From an uncultured Paenibacillaceae bacterium (GTDB lineage: Bacteria; Bacillota; Bacilli; Paenibacillales; K13): a stretch of DNA of 64,000 nucleotides. Positions 10,917-17,229 of the stretch are shown one piece after another. The notes beneath the pieces are model-generated. The model ran no database searches. It saw only the letters and a list, made by a program, of their open reading frames with translations, and was not told the origin of the DNA. How positions within the stretch are numbered: the first letter of the stretch is position 1; the number at the start of each line of letters is the position of its first letter. A program made the position numbers and the translations under genes. The DNA is taken from assembly GCA_913056365.1 (NCBI GenBank), contig CAJXLT010000004.1:62001-126000 (forward strand). The letters are read 5' to 3'.

Positions 10917-10945
10917 ACCCCCGTAATAACGTAACAATGTGCGAA
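10917..10945 (+). promoter_or_regulatory. Sigma-I-type promoter of sigI-rsgI (autoregulation)
   Basis: ACCCCC (10917-10922) and CGAA (10942-10945) are the two elements described for B. subtilis sigma-I promoters, here 19 bases apart. No good sigma-A promoter is apparent in the 80 bases before sigI. Its position also argues that translation starts downstream of about 10950. Inference from motif resemblance; spacing should be checked. Confidence 0.5.
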
Positions 10946-10969
10946 TTCATTTATTGCGGGGTGGAAATT

Positions 10970-11776
10970 TTGCTGCTGGTTATTATCAAAAAGTTTCTTG
11001 GGCTGCGTTCCCCTCAAGCCGATGTAGAAGGAACAACGATTGAAGATACCATTGCTCATATACAGGACGGCGATACCCGGCTGTTGAATCAAGTTATTAC
11101 CGATTATCAGCCGTATATTGCCAAAGCTGCAAGCCGATTTTGCAAACGATATATTGATCCTTCGCAGGATGAAGAATTTGCTGTCGCTTTGCATGGCTTT
11201 CACGAGGCAATTCAACAATTTTCGCCAACGGAAGGACGCTCGTTTCTTGGATTTGCGGAAACGGTTATTCGACGAAGATTAATTGATCATTTGCGCAAGG
11301 AGCGCCGCCATTCGGGGCATGCCTCGTACAGTTCTTTTGAATGGGAGGATGAGGACGGGCTTCCGGTCAATACAGCTGATGTTCGAAAAGCGATTGATGT
11401 GTATGAGAAGGAAAGAACAACAGAGGACCGCCGTGCGGAAATAGAAGCATTCAGCCAAGAGCTGAATATGTTCGAAATTAGCTTCGATGAGCTGGTACGC
11501 GTATCGCCTAAGCATGCTGACTCTCGCGAAACGATGTTCGGCATTGCGCGAACAATTGCAGATGATCCGGATATGCTAGGCGCATTATTCAGCAAAAAAA
11601 CGATGCCGATAAAGGAACTGCTCGAGAAAGTACAAGTATCACGCAAAACGATCGAGCGGAATCGGAAGTACTTGATTGCACTCGCTTTAATTTATGCAGG
11701 GCATTATCCGTATTTGTCTGATTATTTGCGACTAAGTGAAGTTGAACAACTAGCTGCGGAAGGAAAGGGGGGATAA
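10970..11776 (+). CDS. sigI: RNA polymerase sigma factor SigI
   Basis: Alternative sigma-70-family factor; in B. subtilis it responds to heat and cell-envelope conditions, in clostridia to polysaccharides. Region 2 is visible as ITDYQPYIAKAASRFCKRYIDPSQDEEF and FAETVIRRRLIDHLRKERR. The C-terminal part contains FDELVRVSPKHADSR and KVQVSRKTIERNRKYLIALALI, close to SigI of Bacillus. The frame is open from ATG 10937, but that would place the promoter -10 inside the gene. TTG 10970 has GGGGTGG at 5 bases and GTG 10961 is the other option. rsgI follows after 2 bases, so they are co-transcribed. Confidence 0.9.
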   Translation: MLLVIIKKFLGLRSPQADVEGTTIEDTIAHIQDGDTRLLNQVITDYQPYIAKAASRFCKRYIDPSQDEEFAVALHGFHEAIQQFSPTEGRSFLGFAETVIRRRLIDHLRKERRHSGHASYSSFEWEDEDGLPVNTADVRKAIDVYEKERTTEDRRAEIEAFSQELNMFEISFDELVRVSPKHADSRETMFGIARTIADDPDMLGALFSKKTMPIKELLEKVQVSRKTIERNRKYLIALALIYAGHYPYLSDYLRLSEVEQLAAEGKGG

Positions 11777-11778
11777 GT

Positions 11779-13359
11779 GTGAGCAGACATAAGGGCGTCA
11801 TTATGCAGCTAAGAAAGAAGCGGGCGGTCGTTCTAACACCAGAAGGTGTGTTCAAGCGTTGCCATGCCGATCCGAACTGGATGGTTGGTGACGAGATAGA
11901 TATTCCGGTCCGGCAATTGAAGATGAGACAAGTATATTACAGCGCTGCGGCGGCGGTCATTCTGCTCGCACTTATCACAGTGCTGTATCCGTTCGCTGGA
12001 GGCTCGTCCTCGCATCAGATTGTTGCCTACGTTACGTTGGATATTAATCCGAGTATTGAACTTGGTATTGATAAGCAGGATATCGTACGCAGTGCGGTAG
12101 GATTGAATGCAGATGGCGAACGCATTATTGCGCAGCTTAATCTAATAGGGAAGCGATTGGATGAGACAGCAGCAGCCATTATTCAGCAGGTCGATGCGGC
12201 AGGGATTATCTCAAGGCATATCCAAGATGACACGGTAGAAATTGTAGTATCGACGACTGTAATAGTAGATTCAGCAGTGGATGAGCGGGAAGATGGCAAT
12301 GCGCAAGTGTCCGTCAAGCAGTCGATTCAAGCTGAACTGGCAGCGCTTCATAAGGATGAGCCTGTTCATGTAAGTATAGATGAAGTGTCGACGCCGCCCG
12401 ACGTTCGTGAGGAAGCGCAAAAAGAAGGGATTTCAACGGGGAAGATGGCTGTTAAACTGCTCGCAGAACAGCATGGAATTACGATTTCGAATGAAGATTT
12501 GAACCAACTGCCAATTGGTAAAGTTTTGCAAGAGGCGGGCGGCATGTCCGGATTACTGAAGCAAATCGAAGATGCTGGTTCTACCTCGCAGGTGTTGAGT
12601 GAATTGGTTGACAAGCATCGACAACGCGCAGAGGAACAACAGGACAAGCAGGAAGAATTCAAGCCCAGCCATTCCGATGACAACCGGGAAAAGCAGGACG
12701 ATCGACCTAATCGACCTAGCCATGATAAACCTGAACGACCAGAACGACCAGATCGAGGCAATGCTGACAAAGGGAATGAGGATAAGCCGAAGGGCAAGCC
12801 GGGGCGGTCTGACAAGGCTGGTATGAAGCTGCCGTTCGACCTTCCAATTGAGATAGATCGAGGGAACGGGTGGAGACAGTTCCACGATGGATGGGAGGAT
12901 GAATCTGACAAGGATGATAAAGAGCGAGAACGCTTCGACGAACAACATGATACGAGCGAGAAGCCTCCCCATTCGAACGACCGCGGCGGAAAACAGGACG
13001 ATGAAAAATGGAATGAGCGGGGACAGAAGCCTGGCAGAGACAAGGATGACGAGAAGAGAGAGGAGCGGCGCGGCACTCCGCCAGTTCATGATAAGGGCAG
13101 AGAAGGCTCGAATGAAGAGAGATCATCTCAGGCGAATCATGAGCGTGAGAGGCGATGGGAGCGTGATGAGGACGACAGTGACCGCCGTATCAAAGCGGAG
13201 GATCAGAAGAAGGTTGAAGAGAAGGGGCAGGATGGCCGCGGCAAGGGGAAAGACAGGGATGTGCGGCAGGATGAGCGCGGTGAAGGAAAGCACAACGGTC
13301 CTCGAAGGGAAAAAGATAAGCGTCAGGAAGAAGAACGAGAACGTGGATATCGTGAATAA
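11779..13359 (+). CDS. rsgI: Anti-sigma-I factor RsgI with a long charged C-terminal tail
   Basis: Single-pass membrane protein that binds and holds SigI. Residues 1-50 form the cytosolic RsgI N-terminal domain and about 52-74 the membrane helix. The outer domain carries VTLDINPSIELGID. In clostridial RsgI proteins self-cleavage occurs between Asn and Pro of this kind of site, here N90-P91. After about residue 275 the protein becomes a low-complexity tail of some 250 residues rich in D, E, K, R and G. The GTG start follows AAGGGGGGATAA. Tails of RsgI proteins vary widely and act as outer sensors or wall-interacting regions; this one has no recognised carbohydrate-binding domain. Confidence 0.9.
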   Translation: MSRHKGVIMQLRKKRAVVLTPEGVFKRCHADPNWMVGDEIDIPVRQLKMRQVYYSAAAAVILLALITVLYPFAGGSSSHQIVAYVTLDINPSIELGIDKQDIVRSAVGLNADGERIIAQLNLIGKRLDETAAAIIQQVDAAGIISRHIQDDTVEIVVSTTVIVDSAVDEREDGNAQVSVKQSIQAELAALHKDEPVHVSIDEVSTPPDVREEAQKEGISTGKMAVKLLAEQHGITISNEDLNQLPIGKVLQEAGGMSGLLKQIEDAGSTSQVLSELVDKHRQRAEEQQDKQEEFKPSHSDDNREKQDDRPNRPSHDKPERPERPDRGNADKGNEDKPKGKPGRSDKAGMKLPFDLPIEIDRGNGWRQFHDGWEDESDKDDKERERFDEQHDTSEKPPHSNDRGGKQDDEKWNERGQKPGRDKDDEKREERRGTPPVHDKGREGSNEERSSQANHERERRWERDEDDSDRRIKAEDQKKVEEKGQDGRGKGKDRDVRQDERGEGKHNGPRREKDKRQEEERERGYRE

Positions 13360-13422: not shown

Positions 13423-13451
13423 TTGACGATGCTTGGGAATAGGGCTAACAT
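13423..13451 (+). promoter_or_regulatory. Sigma-A promoter of the rsbR operon
   Basis: TTGACG (13423-13428), 17 bases, TAACAT (13446-13451), about 55 bases before the rsbR start. Suggests vegetative transcription of the whole cassette. Confidence 0.6.
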
Positions 13452-13506
13452 ATTTAGCAGTTAAGCTTTTCTATTTCATAGATATTGAATTTCTTTGGAG
13501 GTAATC

Positions 13507-14382
13507 ATGTCAGCAAGCTTGGATGAACTGAAGCACCTGTTGGACAACCAAGACGAAATTATGGACGCGTGGATGCACAGGCTCGAGGACGAAGGCAACG
13601 AATGGTTGGAGCATATGAGTATTGCTCAGCTGCGTCAGAAAAGTCAAGTGTTTCTGCAGGAGATCAGCGAGCTGATCTTGACAGGTAATGTGGATTACAA
13701 GGTAGAAGACCGGCCAGTGCTAGAAGCGCAACTGAAGGGATTTACTACAGACGCTGCACATTTTGGTATGGGAGCAACCGCTTTTTATCCTTATGTAACG
13801 AGCCTTAAGTATATCTTGATCCATAAGCTGATCGAACAATTGAGCAGTGCGCCGGATCAGTTGCCTGCCGCATTCAGTGATATGTACAAAGTATTAACCC
13901 GACCTTATGAATATTTCATAAGCAGTTATATTGCCATGCGGGAACGTATTATTTATTCCCAATCCAGAGCAATTGCGGAGCTATCCACGCCTGTTATCCA
14001 AATTTGGAATGATGTTGTGGCGATGCCGCTCATAGGTGAGATTGATACATCACGCGCCAAGGAAATTATGGAGAATTTATTGAACGCCATCTTGGAAACG
14101 AAGGCAACTTATGTACTCTTGGATATTACAGGTGTGCCTATCGTCGATACCGGCGTTGCCGAAAGCTTAATCAAGACAGTTGAGGCTGCTCGCTTACTTG
14201 GCGCTCAATGTGTACTGACTGGTATCCGTCCTGAAGTTGCGCAAACATTAGTCATGTTAGGTGTTGACTTAGGCAGCATTGTGACCAAGGCAGATTTCCG
14301 CAACGGACTTGCTTACATACTGGAGATGATGGAAACTTCTTCGTCGCGTGCATTCGTCTCGAAGACGAACCAGTCATCATGA
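13507..14382 (+). CDS. rsbR: RsbR-type stressosome protein (sensor domain plus STAS)
   Basis: Scaffold and sensor of a stressosome. Residues 1-150 form the variable N-terminal helical domain (globin-like in B. subtilis RsbR). The C-terminal STAS domain has LLDITGVPIVDTGVAESLI and LTGIRPEVAQTLVMLGVDL. The threonines in VDT and AQT correspond to the two sites RsbT phosphorylates in RsbRA. ATG 13507 follows TTGGAGGTAA. It is the first gene of a tight run with rsbS, rsbT, an rsbX-like gene and a histidine kinase. The 291-residue length fits the family. What the N-terminus senses is unknown. Confidence 0.92.
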   Translation: MSASLDELKHLLDNQDEIMDAWMHRLEDEGNEWLEHMSIAQLRQKSQVFLQEISELILTGNVDYKVEDRPVLEAQLKGFTTDAAHFGMGATAFYPYVTSLKYILIHKLIEQLSSAPDQLPAAFSDMYKVLTRPYEYFISSYIAMRERIIYSQSRAIAELSTPVIQIWNDVVAMPLIGEIDTSRAKEIMENLLNAILETKATYVLLDITGVPIVDTGVAESLIKTVEAARLLGAQCVLTGIRPEVAQTLVMLGVDLGSIVTKADFRNGLAYILEMMETSSSRAFVSKTNQSS

Positions 14383-14398
14383 AGAGAGGCTAGCATAT

Positions 14399-14776
14399 AT
14401 GCAGAATCAAGTACCTATCTTACAGATGGGAGATGTGCTCATCGTTACGATAAAGCCGGATTTAACGGATGATGAGGCGGTTAAGCTGAAGGATGATATT
14501 CTGCACGAGATCAAAAAAAACAACATATATGGACTTATTCTGGATATCTCGGTAGTTGATTTGATTGACAGCTATATGGGAAGAATTCTAAGCGAAATGT
14601 CTGACATGTCCCGATTAATGGGAGCGAGTACGGTCATAACAGGTATGAGTCCATATGTGGCGATATCCATGGTTGAATTTGGCCTTAATTTCCGCAGCAT
14701 TCAGACCGCTTTGACTGTTGAGAAAGGGATGGAATGGTTAAATATTTCCAGAACGATGGGAGTTAGCCATGGTTGA
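14399..14776 (+). CDS. rsbS: RsbS-type STAS-only stressosome protein
   Basis: A 125-residue STAS protein that with RsbR builds the stressosome shell and sequesters RsbT. The motif LILDISVVDLIDSYMGRIL contains the serine equivalent to S59 of B. subtilis RsbS, the RsbT phosphorylation site. ATG 14399 is preceded by GAGAGG; the in-frame ATG at 14348 overlaps rsbR and lacks a ribosome site. Its end overlaps the start of rsbT by 8 bases, which implies translational coupling. Confidence 0.93.
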   Translation: MQNQVPILQMGDVLIVTIKPDLTDDEAVKLKDDILHEIKKNNIYGLILDISVVDLIDSYMGRILSEMSDMSRLMGASTVITGMSPYVAISMVEFGLNFRSIQTALTVEKGMEWLNISRTMGVSHG

Positions 14777-15170
14777 GAACATTCAGATATTCCAGGAATA
14801 TGATGCCATCCTCGCCAGACAACGCGGACGAGAAATGGCCAAACAACTGGGTTTTTCATTAGTCGATCAAACCCGGATTGCCATCAGTATATCTGAATTG
14901 GCTCGCAACATACTGATCTATGCCGGTGAGGGAGAGGTAGAGATTCGCATGATAGAATCATCCGGTCATAAGACCGGGTTGGAAATAAGGGCTTCGGACA
15001 AGGGCCCAGGCATATCCGATTTGGAAATGGCCTTGACAGACGGCTACACCTCTTCAGGAGGTCTAGGTATGGGTCTGCCAGGTACGAAACGGCTGATGGA
15101 TGATTTCGAGATTCGCAGCGATGTTGGCAAAGGAACGTCCATTACGATTCGCAAATGGCTATCCTCCTAA
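14769..15170 (+). CDS. rsbT: RsbT-type serine/threonine switch kinase
   Basis: GHKL-fold kinase of 133 residues. When released from the stressosome it phosphorylates RsbR and RsbS and then activates a partner bearing an RsbU-type N-terminal domain. ATP-site elements are visible: ISELARNILIYAGEG (N-box), ASDKGPGI (G1) and GGLGMGLPGTKRLMD (G2). ATG 14769 lies inside the end of rsbS. The expected RsbU phosphatase is missing from the operon. A histidine kinase with an RsbU-like N-terminus takes its place two genes on. Confidence 0.94.
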   Translation: MVENIQIFQEYDAILARQRGREMAKQLGFSLVDQTRIAISISELARNILIYAGEGEVEIRMIESSGHKTGLEIRASDKGPGISDLEMALTDGYTSSGGLGMGLPGTKRLMDDFEIRSDVGKGTSITIRKWLSS

Positions 15171-15215
15171 TCGGAATAGTTCCATGATTCCTGTCAAGTC
15201 AGGGGGAGAACGGTT

Positions 15216-15824
15216 ATACATATTGCAATACTCAAGCATCCGTTCCACAAGAAGGGAGGGGACGGATATGTTGTACAAGAACATGCTGACCATGAGCTTA
15301 TCATTGCAGTCTTCGACGGACTTGGGCACGGTCAGAGAGCAGTATATGCCGCGGAAGCATTAGAAGACATATGTATGCGTGCCCCGAGCCGCGACCCTCG
15401 CAAGCTGCTCGAGTATGCTCACCCTAAGCTGCGGCATACAGCAGGTGCTGCTTGCATGGTCGTTCACTTGGACTGCGAGCGACAGATGGCAAGTTATGCA
15501 GGAGTCGGCAATATCTCGATGTTCTTCGGCGACAGGGAGAAGGTCAAGTGGCGATCCGGCGATGCAGGCATACTTGGGTATAGACAAATTCAAGTCAGAC
15601 AACTGCGCTTTACTTGGGAAGATGGGGATATTCTCGTCTTGCATACGGATGGACTGCGCAAAGAAGGGGTAAAGCGTTTGATCCATCATCATCATACACC
15701 CTCAGATCTAGCAAATGCGATTCATGCACACCAGTATTCCGGCATGGATGATGCGCTGGTGTTAGTCTGCTCATTGCACGCGCAACGGGCAGTTCAGATT
15801 GAGGAGGAGACGATCCGTGCATGA
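15216..15824 (+). CDS. rsbX: RsbX-like PP2C/SpoIIE-family phosphatase, non-canonical start codon
   Basis: RsbX resets the stressosome by dephosphorylating RsbS and RsbR. The frame encodes GGDGYVVQEHADHELIIAVFDGLGHGQRA, then SYAGVGNISMFFG and LVLHTDGLRKEGV, the usual metal-binding aspartates and glycines of this phosphatase class. The frame opens after a stop at 15177-15179 and contains no ATG, GTG or TTG before this conserved region; the first ATG (15375) would delete the first active-site motif. A strong ribosome site AGGGGGAG (15201-15208) lies 7 bases before ATA 15216, which is taken as the start. Alternatives are ATT 15222 or a lost base in the G-run joining ATG 15184. It overlaps the kinase gene by 8 bases. 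Confidence 0.75.
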   Translation: MHIAILKHPFHKKGGDGYVVQEHADHELIIAVFDGLGHGQRAVYAAEALEDICMRAPSRDPRKLLEYAHPKLRHTAGAACMVVHLDCERQMASYAGVGNISMFFGDREKVKWRSGDAGILGYRQIQVRQLRFTWEDGDILVLHTDGLRKEGVKRLIHHHHTPSDLANAIHAHQYSGMDDALVLVCSLHAQRAVQIEEETIRA

Positions 15825-17229
15825 CATTCAACGTGAATATCTCAAACAACTATCGGCTTACATTCAGAATGAGAACGAGACTTATTTGGACAGCGCTGCA
15901 CAGATAGGTAAGCAGCTGCAGGGGATGAAACCTGAAGAGATGCTGTCGCTTCACATTGCATGTATGAAGATTATTATGGCGAATTCAGATCCTGCGGAAG
16001 CTGTTCACCTATATCCGGTTTCCTTCGTATTCCTCATGGAAGCAATGGTTAGCTACCGGATGGTACCAGTAGACAATAATGAACAGCAAAAAATGTTCGA
16101 GGAAATGCGGCATCTCATATTCAAGTCGCAGCATTCTGTTCAAAGTGTGAAGAATAAGTATGAGAATATGATGCAGCATATGGATTGCGGGATTGCGATC
16201 TTTGATCAGCATGGATACTTGTCTTTTATCAATATTGAGATGAGCAAGCTGTTGAGAATTCCGCGCAGACTGCTCGTTGGATGCAACTTGAAGTCGCTAC
16301 TGCTTCACCCAAGCTTGAAGCTAGGCGTGCGGCGGATGATTCTGAATGTGTATAAGCAAATGTGGCAATACCGCCTTCCTTTTCACGAGATCATGTCGCC
16401 AGATGGCGCGCATCTGCTCGTATCTGCCACATACGGTGAGGAATTGAATGGGGACATGCTGATTAGCGTCAAGGATGTAACCGAATTCAAGCGAATTGAG
16501 CAAACAGCGTATCAGAACGACAAGTTGGCCATGCTGGGCAAGATCTCTGCGGCGATCGCGCATGAAATTCGCAATCCGCTGACTTCGATTCGCGGATTTA
16601 TCCAATTGCTGCATAAGGACTTGGCCAAGCTGAACAAGCAGCAGTACGGGGAGATCATTCTTTCTGAAATCGACCGTGCTAACAACATCATTCATGAATT
16701 TCTCAATTCATCCAAACCTACTTCACCGGTGAAGCAAGACGTAACGGTTCATTCCTTGCTGCAGGAAATCGTCTTATTATCCGAGAGCGAAGCCATGCTG
16801 AAGGGCTGTATGTTGGAAAATGTGCCGAGCCGGGATGACCTGCATCTATGGGTGGATGTGAAGCAGATCAAGCAGGTGCTGCTGAATATTGTGAAGAATG
16901 CACTGGACGCCATAGCCTTCAATAGGAGCACACCGGGCAGAATTACCATTCGATCCGGGATCAAGGAACAAGAAGCCCTCATCAGTATTACAGATAATGG
17001 ACCCGGTATGGATCAGAAGACGCTGGCGAAGCTGTTCGAGCCGTTCTTCACGACCAAAGAGAGCGGTACAGGGCTTGGGCTATCCGTATGCTACCGGATC
17101 ATACGTAATCATGGCGGTACCATTCATGTGAAGAGCAGTGTAGGTGAAGGGACTGAATTTCTCATCAAGCTCCCGATGAAGGAAGCTGCGAGAATCGAGC
17201 ATAAGCCGCGTAAAGTATCCGTTCTATAG
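15817..17229 (+). CDS. Orphan histidine kinase with RsbU-type N-terminal domain, PAS, HisKA and HATPase
   Basis: A 470-residue cytosolic kinase without membrane helices. Residues 1-100 closely resemble the N-terminal RsbT-binding domain of RsbU (YLKQLSAYIQNENETYL, MKPEEMLSLH, FLMEAMVSYRM). Residues 112-225 look like a PAS domain. The HisKA domain has H249 in AAIAHEIRNPLTSIRGFIQLL, a form shared with sporulation kinases. The HATPase has NALDAI, DNGPGMD and GTGLGLSVC. GTG 15817 follows GAGGAGGAG. No response regulator is adjacent, as with sporulation kinases. Inference: RsbT released from the stressosome binds the N-terminus and alters kinase activity. Confidence 0.9.
   Translation: MHDIQREYLKQLSAYIQNENETYLDSAAQIGKQLQGMKPEEMLSLHIACMKIIMANSDPAEAVHLYPVSFVFLMEAMVSYRMVPVDNNEQQKMFEEMRHLIFKSQHSVQSVKNKYENMMQHMDCGIAIFDQHGYLSFINIEMSKLLRIPRRLLVGCNLKSLLLHPSLKLGVRRMILNVYKQMWQYRLPFHEIMSPDGAHLLVSATYGEELNGDMLISVKDVTEFKRIEQTAYQNDKLAMLGKISAAIAHEIRNPLTSIRGFIQLLHKDLAKLNKQQYGEIILSEIDRANNIIHEFLNSSKPTSPVKQDVTVHSLLQEIVLLSESEAMLKGCMLENVPSRDDLHLWVDVKQIKQVLLNIVKNALDAIAFNRSTPGRITIRSGIKEQEALISITDNGPGMDQKTLAKLFEPFFTTKESGTGLGLSVCYRIIRNHGGTIHVKSSVGEGTEFLIKLPMKEAARIEHKPRKVSVL

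Follow-up and report, generated by a model that had tools for sequence, protein, structure and literature searches.

What does the switch protein RsbT act on when the stressosome genes around it are followed by a gene for a histidine kinase? In Bacillus subtilis, RsbR senses stress; RsbT then phosphorylates RsbR and RsbS, dissociates from the complex and binds the N-terminal domain (RsbU_N) of the phosphatase RsbU. We addressed this question in a 64,000-nucleotide (nt) stretch of DNA from an uncultured Paenibacillaceae bacterium (contig CAJXLT010000004.1, positions 62,001 to 126,000; hereafter the window), whose plus strand carries, in this order, sigI, rsgI, rsbR, rsbS, rsbT, rsbX and a gene for a 470-amino-acid (aa) histidine kinase with an RsbU_N domain of its own. 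The operon, this domain and a conserved partnership of RsbT with the kinase are real, and we state them with high confidence. On that basis we propose, with moderate confidence, that RsbT of the stressosome operon controls the co-encoded kinase via RsbU_N, and probably RsbU too, forming a fork between SigB and the Spo0 phosphorelay.

The kinase consists of RsbU_N, a helical linker, PAS, HisKA and HATPase_c, with every Pfam match above its cut-off (RsbU_N, 45.1 bits; PAS_7, 30.3; HisKA, 59; HATPase_c, 98.6); PAS-HisKA-HATPase thus takes the place of the C-terminal PP2C domain that would make it an RsbU phosphatase. A comparison of residues 1-110 with the Protein Data Bank (PDB) placed RsbU N-domain chains in the top four positions (E = 0.0028-0.015), ahead of unrelated chains that began at E = 0.29, indicating that the resemblance of the kinase N terminus to RsbU is above chance. 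An earlier reading of the window made from its letters alone (the sequence-only reading) had likened the first ~100 residues to the RsbU N terminus, and the PF08673 match together with the PDB ranking confirmed it; the cassette it had described, rsbR-rsbS-rsbT-rsbX with tight junctions and an 8-base overlap into a 470-residue PAS-HisKA-HATPase kinase, was likewise borne out by Pfam, PDB and the coordinates.

The coupling of RsbT to the kinase was backed by gene linkage in a survey of 392 genomes of the order, in which 59 kinase loci beyond the window were fetched. All 59 proteins matched the window kinase at E <1e-120, the one from G260 as a broken frame, and RsbU_N was detected in 60 of the 392 genomes at E<=0.001 (above cut-off in 52). 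A profile made from nine kinase-cluster members of RsbT and its degenerate form T', with which up to 11 candidates per genome were scored, identified RsbT-family genes in 17 of the 392 genomes at E<1e-40. None of the 17 was outside a kinase cluster: in 15 the kinase gene follows immediately, and in the other two rsbX intervenes. In a control set, rsbT stood upstream of rsbU in 29 of the 30 best-scoring loci of the class, so that RsbT adjoining its RsbU_N partner is the usual arrangement there. Intact RsbT accounted for three of the 17: both genomes from the genus of the window, plus G091. In G091 the intact RsbT adjoins the kinase, and no RsbR, RsbS, RsbV or RsbU_N phosphatase was recognised (one 518-aa STAS frame is unclassified; STAS matches without a fetched locus, 490-518 aa and of sulfate-permease size, in G091 and the T' genomes were left out of the classification). 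Apart from these clusters, HATPase proteins with a weak resemblance to RsbT were seen at three places away from the kinase locus (L279, L280 and L281 in G344, G301 and G006; frames of 132-141 aa, E ~3e-10 to 1e-9). A kinase-query scan of the genome contigs, from which records of the window's genome or its neighbours may be missing, returned 63 loci, mostly generic kinases matched via the catalytic core, and was not used.

The remaining 14 genomes, from four genera (g36, 8; g40, 2; g47, 2; g48, 2), carry T' as the gene directly upstream of the kinase (L107, L108, L110, L112-L116, L118, L119, L127, L129, L131 and L135). All 14 T' proteins have lost the asparagine of the N box, the first glycine of the G1 box and the glycines of the G2 box, which is gapped, and Pfam detected no HATPase domain at E<=1 in the one T' tested. 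All 14 keep both arginines equivalent to R19 and R23 of B. subtilis RsbT, residues reported within the RsbU interface in the accessible text of Baral et al. 2025 (PMC12143880). In its helix half T' is 62% identical to the window RsbT, and elsewhere 19%; the corresponding values of 29 intact RsbTs taken from rsbU loci are 57% and 52%. Of 31 within-genus pairs of full-length T', 22 had a defined dS, and for these the ratio of nonsynonymous to synonymous substitution rates (dN/dS) was 0.016-0.18 (when the halves were scored separately, the ratio rose to 0.4 in one pair); with the open frames, these values ruled out that T' genes are pseudogenes. Retention of the contact half after loss of the ATPase further argues for an RsbT-kinase coupling. 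Five of the 14 T' genomes were surveyed for STAS proteins; RsbR and RsbS were recognised in none of the five, and RsbV, RsbW and SigB were found in all of them.

The sequence-only reading had the kinase wired to the stressosome instead of RsbU and sigma-B, on the grounds that no RsbU, RsbV, RsbW or SigB gene is present. This holds for the window and fails for the genome (4.65 Mb, 99% complete), in which an rsbV-rsbW-sigB-rsbU cluster lies on another contig (L004 7333-9939) with no rsbRST beside it. A contiguous sigB operon of the B. subtilis type is thus missing, the idea of an organism without a SigB branch is ruled out, and "instead of" has to be read as "as well as". The genome holds two RsbU_N proteins above cut-off, the window kinase and the 336-aa RsbU of that cluster (RsbU_N 52.9-54.9 bits, followed by a PP2C domain); a third match, at 17.6 bits below cut-off, runs antisense within another gene. 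A close match to RsbT was found in one protein only, the next matches including SpoIIAB, RsbW and hybrid kinases. With a single rsbT and two RsbU_N proteins, RsbT probably serves both, and we lean slightly towards its also switching RsbU. The sequence-only reading had itself named a sigB-rsbVW-rsbU set elsewhere that uses this RsbT as evidence against it, and half of that is now in hand: the set, with its RsbU_N domain, exists. The only other genome of the window's genus in the set, G001, has the same cassette and a separate RsbU with sigB (L140, outside the 59 kinases), and these two were the only genomes, among those surveyed with a kinase locus, in which an RsbU_N phosphatase was additionally found. 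One further pair was noted in the window's genome (L213; G000 contig 3, ~152560), where another STAS protein (118-aa frame) adjoins a frame of 461 aa that resembles RsbU (75 bits); it is perhaps a further partner-switching module.

These findings bear on the original proposal that RsbT serves the kinase alone, with the distant RsbU switched otherwise or a remnant. The kinase-only state in G091 speaks for it, as does the position of the genome's own RsbU far from rsbRST with an aspartate at residue 28, a residue that two of 12 class RsbUs lacking an upstream rsbT share (see below). However, the distant RsbU keeps both of its domains, no second RsbT was found in the genome to switch it, and the sister genome retains kinase and RsbU alike, so that we give this proposal little credence.

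To what extent do the RsbU_N domains retain an RsbT-binding surface? Positions are given in B. subtilis RsbU numbering, and three groups were compared: RsbUs of the class (the 30 best-scoring, then a second set of 20 lower-scoring), the 14 kinases beside T' and the 43 kinases without RsbT or T'. Glutamate 24 is kept in 30/30 best-scoring RsbUs, 14/14 T' kinases and 29/43 kinases without RsbT. Position 28 is tyrosine in all 30 RsbUs and tyrosine or phenylalanine in all 14 T' kinases and in 19 of the 43 others, and position 80 is tyrosine in 30, 12 (the other two phenylalanine) and 11, respectively; H51 is retained in every group. Glutamate 24 combined with an aromatic residue at 80 marks 16/17 kinases with RsbT or T' versus 6/42 without, as a raw contrast. 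In the second RsbU sample rsbT lay upstream in 8 of 20, and all eight have Tyr28, while the other 12 have Tyr (2), Phe (1) or another residue (9), Asp among them in two. The position-28 pattern supports a T'-kinase contact in the T' genomes. At the contact positions E24, Y28, I74 and I78 the window kinase has E, D, M and V, and its own RsbU E, D, I and V; in the window's genus and G091, whose RsbTs have Glu or Asp at the position of B. subtilis N24, the contact may be either re-shaped or weak. Co-adaptation as an account of the Asp28 shared by the kinase and its RsbU was dropped once the second sample tied Tyr28 to an upstream rsbT. Tyr28 in class RsbUs (L311-L330, L169-L198) is also a possible marker of RsbT-controlled RsbU_N proteins.

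Several of these observations weigh against control of the kinase by RsbT. As many as 43 of the 59 related kinase loci have RsbU_N (in eight of them under the Pfam cut-off) and yet no RsbT or T', so that dependence on RsbT cannot be general among the RsbU_N kinases of the order. Tyr28 is present in 37/37 RsbUs with rsbT upstream, as opposed to Tyr in three and Phe in one of the 13 without it in the stretch seen, but it is replaced in all three kinases accompanied by intact RsbT (Asp, Asp and, in G091, Ala) and is Asp also in the RsbU of the window's genus, where the canonical contact would therefore be either altered or lost in both proteins. In the light of the second RsbU sample we counted Asp28 against the proposal and lowered our confidence in it, as well as in RsbT binding and in service to RsbU. 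A tree-aware test of the contact residues had two independent pairs and no power, leaving the contrasts above as raw counts. An AlphaFold2 single-sequence model of kinase residues 1-120 (six helices; predicted local distance difference test, pLDDT, 78; predicted template modelling score, pTM, 0.74) gave no significant Foldseek match (best E = 0.43), and RsbU was not among the matches listed.

These points can be read to mean that RsbT keeps to its B. subtilis role and works on SigB by way of RsbU alone, the kinase being only an operon mate and its RsbU_N a leftover or a plain dimerisation module, since the genome does hold an rsbVW-sigB-rsbU set, most related kinases retain RsbU_N in loci without RsbT or T', and the window kinase lacks Tyr28 (as its own RsbU does). 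Such a reading does not fit the confinement of RsbT-family genes to kinase clusters, the pairing of RsbT with the kinase in G091, where no RsbU_N phosphatase, RsbV, RsbR or RsbS was recognised, or a T' without ATPase motifs that adjoins the kinase in 14 genomes, in five of which, those surveyed for STAS proteins, RsbR and RsbS went unrecognised. We consider it improbable, and we hold it quite likely, from sequence, that RsbT binds the kinase.

By homology with B. subtilis, stress at RsbR would lead RsbT to phosphorylate RsbR and RsbS and depart from the complex. Free RsbT would then dock on the kinase at its RsbU_N dimer, and the helical linker that precedes PAS and HisKA would become ordered, with a change in kinase activity; phosphate would pass to Spo0F and on to Spo0A, RsbX would reset the complex, and RsbT would also switch the distant RsbU of the rsbVW-sigB set. 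The change in activity is fairly probably an activation. The opposite sign, with RsbT or T' silencing a kinase that is constitutive or otherwise regulated in lineages without RsbT, draws on the history of the locus. Kinase orthologues at E<=1e-75 occur in 266/392 genomes, and in g10, g15 and g23, among the matches listed, the kinase alignment begins near residue 70-110. In 20 further loci, judged with our own profile, RsbU_N is absent from 11 kinases (10 of g10, g15 and g23, one of g17) and diverged in nine; an RsbT-like open reading frame (ORF) was found in none of the 20 fetched stretches. On a quick tree of 80 kinase cores, from which the split G260 frame was excluded, RsbT presence needs four changes and RsbU_N two, the deep forks being open and the order of events uncertain. 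Changes in RsbT presence, at least four, while the kinase persists, and loss of RsbU_N from the 10 fetched kinases of g10, g15 and g23, are what a dispensable brake would leave behind, and it is plausible that a response to stress would put sporulation off. In the described cases, however, the effect of RsbT on its RsbU_N partner is activation or control (RsbU, and a Moorella cyclase as cited in PMC12143880), and we regard silencing as unlikely.

Where would the phosphate go? Specificity residues of the window kinase read TSGFQL, and those of 80 orthologues TSGFQL (72) or TAGFQL (8). The available text of Davidson et al. 2018 gives TAGFQL for KinA and KinE, TVGFQL for KinB, TSGFQI for KinC and TGGFQL for KinD, and describes orphan status plus a PAS domain as predictors of Spo0 kinases. 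The window kinase is an orphan with a PAS domain and TxGFQ(L/M/I)-type residues, and the genome encodes a Spo0F homologue, 71% identical to B. subtilis Spo0F; with the SpoIIA operon, this homologue suggests that the organism is a spore-former. In the PDB, "Sporulation kinase B" (3d36, E = 5.6e-35) was among the best three matches of the kinase core, as was a "Sensor protein". Among 21 kinases of the genome with a readable H-box (of 24 matches), G-F-Q or G-F-Y occurs only in the window kinase and its five nearest paralogues. The Spo0F output put forward in the sequence-only reading is backed by the specificity residues, and Spo0F is the likely target. Transfer to a response regulator other than Spo0F would fit the best partial NCBIfam match of the kinase, AtoS (E = 3.9e-80, far below cut-off), which came ahead of KinD (E = 3.2e-57). 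Such a transfer is hardly probable, however, given that TSGFQL differs by one letter from KinA and KinE, that all 80 orthologues read TSGFQL or TAGFQL, that a Spo0F homologue is present, and that inspection by eye of the surroundings of the five nearest paralogues revealed no response regulator.

The window proteins RsbR, RsbS, RsbT and RsbX are homologous to those of the B. subtilis rsbRSTUVW-sigB-rsbX operon and, as there, an RsbU_N target is present. The window differs in that the target is split, a kinase standing in the stressosome operon and RsbU in the distant rsbVW-sigB-rsbU set, with Tyr28 replaced in both. Among sporulation kinases, the window kinase resembles Bacillus KinA-KinE in its orphan status, PAS domain, TxGFQL-type residues and KinB-like core, and departs from them in its input domain, RsbU_N. 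RsbK of B. cereus feeds SigB via RsbY, unlike the window, where RsbT would feed a kinase. The two systems resemble each other in setting a histidine kinase within the SigB network, as far as the accessible text on RsbK-RsbY goes. Control of a non-phosphatase effector by RsbT and RsbU_N is also described for Moorella thermoacetica MtG (RsbU_N-GAF-GGDEF; Quin 2012 as cited in PMC12143880), although that effector is a diguanylate cyclase and ours a histidine kinase.

The available text of Heinz et al. 2022 (PMC9237108) reports eleven architectures downstream of the RSTX modules of several phyla, among them phosphorelays with HisKA, and RsbU_N-like domains on some outputs in Proteobacteria, undetected on most; Baral et al. 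2025 (PMC12143880) takes up these findings and proposes, in the text available, that N-terminal domains of this kind serve as exchangeable modules of control. The window shares with these systems a downstream signalling protein whose RsbU_N-like domain is the proposed RsbT target, histidine kinases being among their outputs. In theirs RsbR is globin-coupled, and REC or cyclic di-GMP proteins are linked to many of them, whereas ours, in Bacillota, combines a soluble orphan kinase of the Spo0F type with a sigB-rsbU set that stands apart, and has relatives whose RsbT is ATPase-dead. A 2025 survey of Paenibacillus (PMC12826061) found KinA-E, Spo0F, Spo0B and Spo0A in >99% of genomes, and "Rsb" does not occur in its accessible text; a 2023 comparison of SigB regulons, likewise as far as available, lists two Paenibacillus genomes with sigB, rsbVW, RsbQP and RsbKY, neither among its species with a complete stressosome. 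RsbU_N kinases beside stressosome genes are thus already in print for Proteobacteria. For Bacillota wiring a stressosome to a sporulation kinase, and for an ATPase-dead RsbT, nothing was found in the literature searched, which omits most subscription papers. In another family of the class, G424 carries a stand-alone RsbU_N-PAS-HisKA kinase adjoining ptsHI (L199 5725-7125, minus strand), with no RsbT seen beside it (a genome-wide RsbT search was not made), and a 525-aa frame (L221) that matches RsbR best (91 bits) and so encodes an RsbR-like protein of unusual length.

The operon and its upstream context are listed in Table 1. Four homologues in the order rsbR, rsbS, rsbT and rsbX, with the expected motifs, identify an RsbRSTX module. 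RsbR aligned with a PDB RsbR across aa 12-273 (E = 1.8e-35) and shares the motifs PLIGxIDTxRAK and GVPxVDT, the threonines of which we take to be phosphosites. RsbS, whose gene starts 16 nt after rsbR, retains the serine of its IDS motif, presumably the phosphosite, where PDB chain 9o4r_a has alanine. The ATP-binding motifs N, G1 and G2 of RsbT are intact in an alignment with 29 RsbTs of rsbU loci. The PDB relatives of RsbR, RsbS and RsbX are, we assume, chains from Listeria and B. subtilis. The rsbX frame is open from 15180 and its homology begins at ~15219, with the first in-frame ATG, GTG or TTG only at 15375; in the sister genome, a TTG occurs a few codons into rsbX. A GGGGAG-like ribosome-binding site precedes GTT-ATA in both genomes, so an unusual start codon is possible. 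The promoter scan returned eight sites in the region against a shuffle mean of 6.8, which is chance level, so that the match upstream of rsbR alone is no evidence of a promoter, and a terminator scan of the region was not above chance.

Table 1. Coordinates of the operon, its upstream genes and the kinase domains within the window.
Feature	Position	Strand	Evidence and remarks
sigI	10937-11776	+	upstream context; Pfam sigma region 2
rsgI	11779-13359	+	upstream context; Pfam RsgI_N, RsgI_M
sigma-70-like promoter match before rsbR (weak)	13423-13451	+	TTGACG-17-TAACAT, 9/12
rsbR	13507-14382	+	Pfam STAS 66 bits; RsbRD_N 24.8 bits, barely above cut-off 24.3
rsbS	14399-14776	+	single STAS domain; PDB RsbS E = 5.1e-26
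rsbT	14769-15170	+	GHKL switch kinase; HATPase_c 44.8 bits; 8-nt overlap with rsbS
rsbX	15213-15824	+	PP2C feedback phosphatase; SpoIIE/PP2C 43.9 bits; PDB RsbX 3w40 E = 1.2e-14; start uncertain
histidine kinase	15817-17229	+	470 aa; GTG start with ribosome-binding site in front; 8-nt overlap with rsbX
RsbU_N domain (kinase aa 7-81)	15835-16059	+	PF08673 45.1 bits, E = 1.1e-11, cut-off 25.5; predicted RsbT-binding/dimerisation domain
HisKA domain, specificity residues TSGFQL	16534-16722	+	Pfam 59 bits

Upstream, rsgI precedes the kinase in 52 of the 59 related loci (synteny counts were taken from ORF labels, and L148 begins at a contig end). At L285-L292, L298, L299, L302 and L303 (g10, g15, g23 and g39) the interval from the conserved upstream gene to the kinase held no recognisable sigI-rsgI pair, and in g10, g15 and g23 of these loci RsbU_N is gone as well.

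Coping with stress and sporulating are usually described as separate networks, and one protein with two possible docking partners could choose between them; if our proposal is true, the stressosome would weigh the two through a single released protein. We suggest tentatively, and with rather less assurance, that RsbT in Paenibacillales may be a dedicated switch subunit of a sporulation-initiating kinase, shared with SigB in the window's genus and reduced in several relatives to a binding-only pseudokinase without a stressosome. T' in 14 relatives would be a natural separation-of-function form, predicting that the effect of RsbT on the kinase needs binding and not catalysis. Taken together, the locus forms a graded series of full stressosome, RsbT only, dead RsbT, none, and loss of the docking domain, which would let the proposal of exchangeable control modules, as set out in the accessible text of Baral et al. 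2025 (PMC12143880), be tested in Bacillota.

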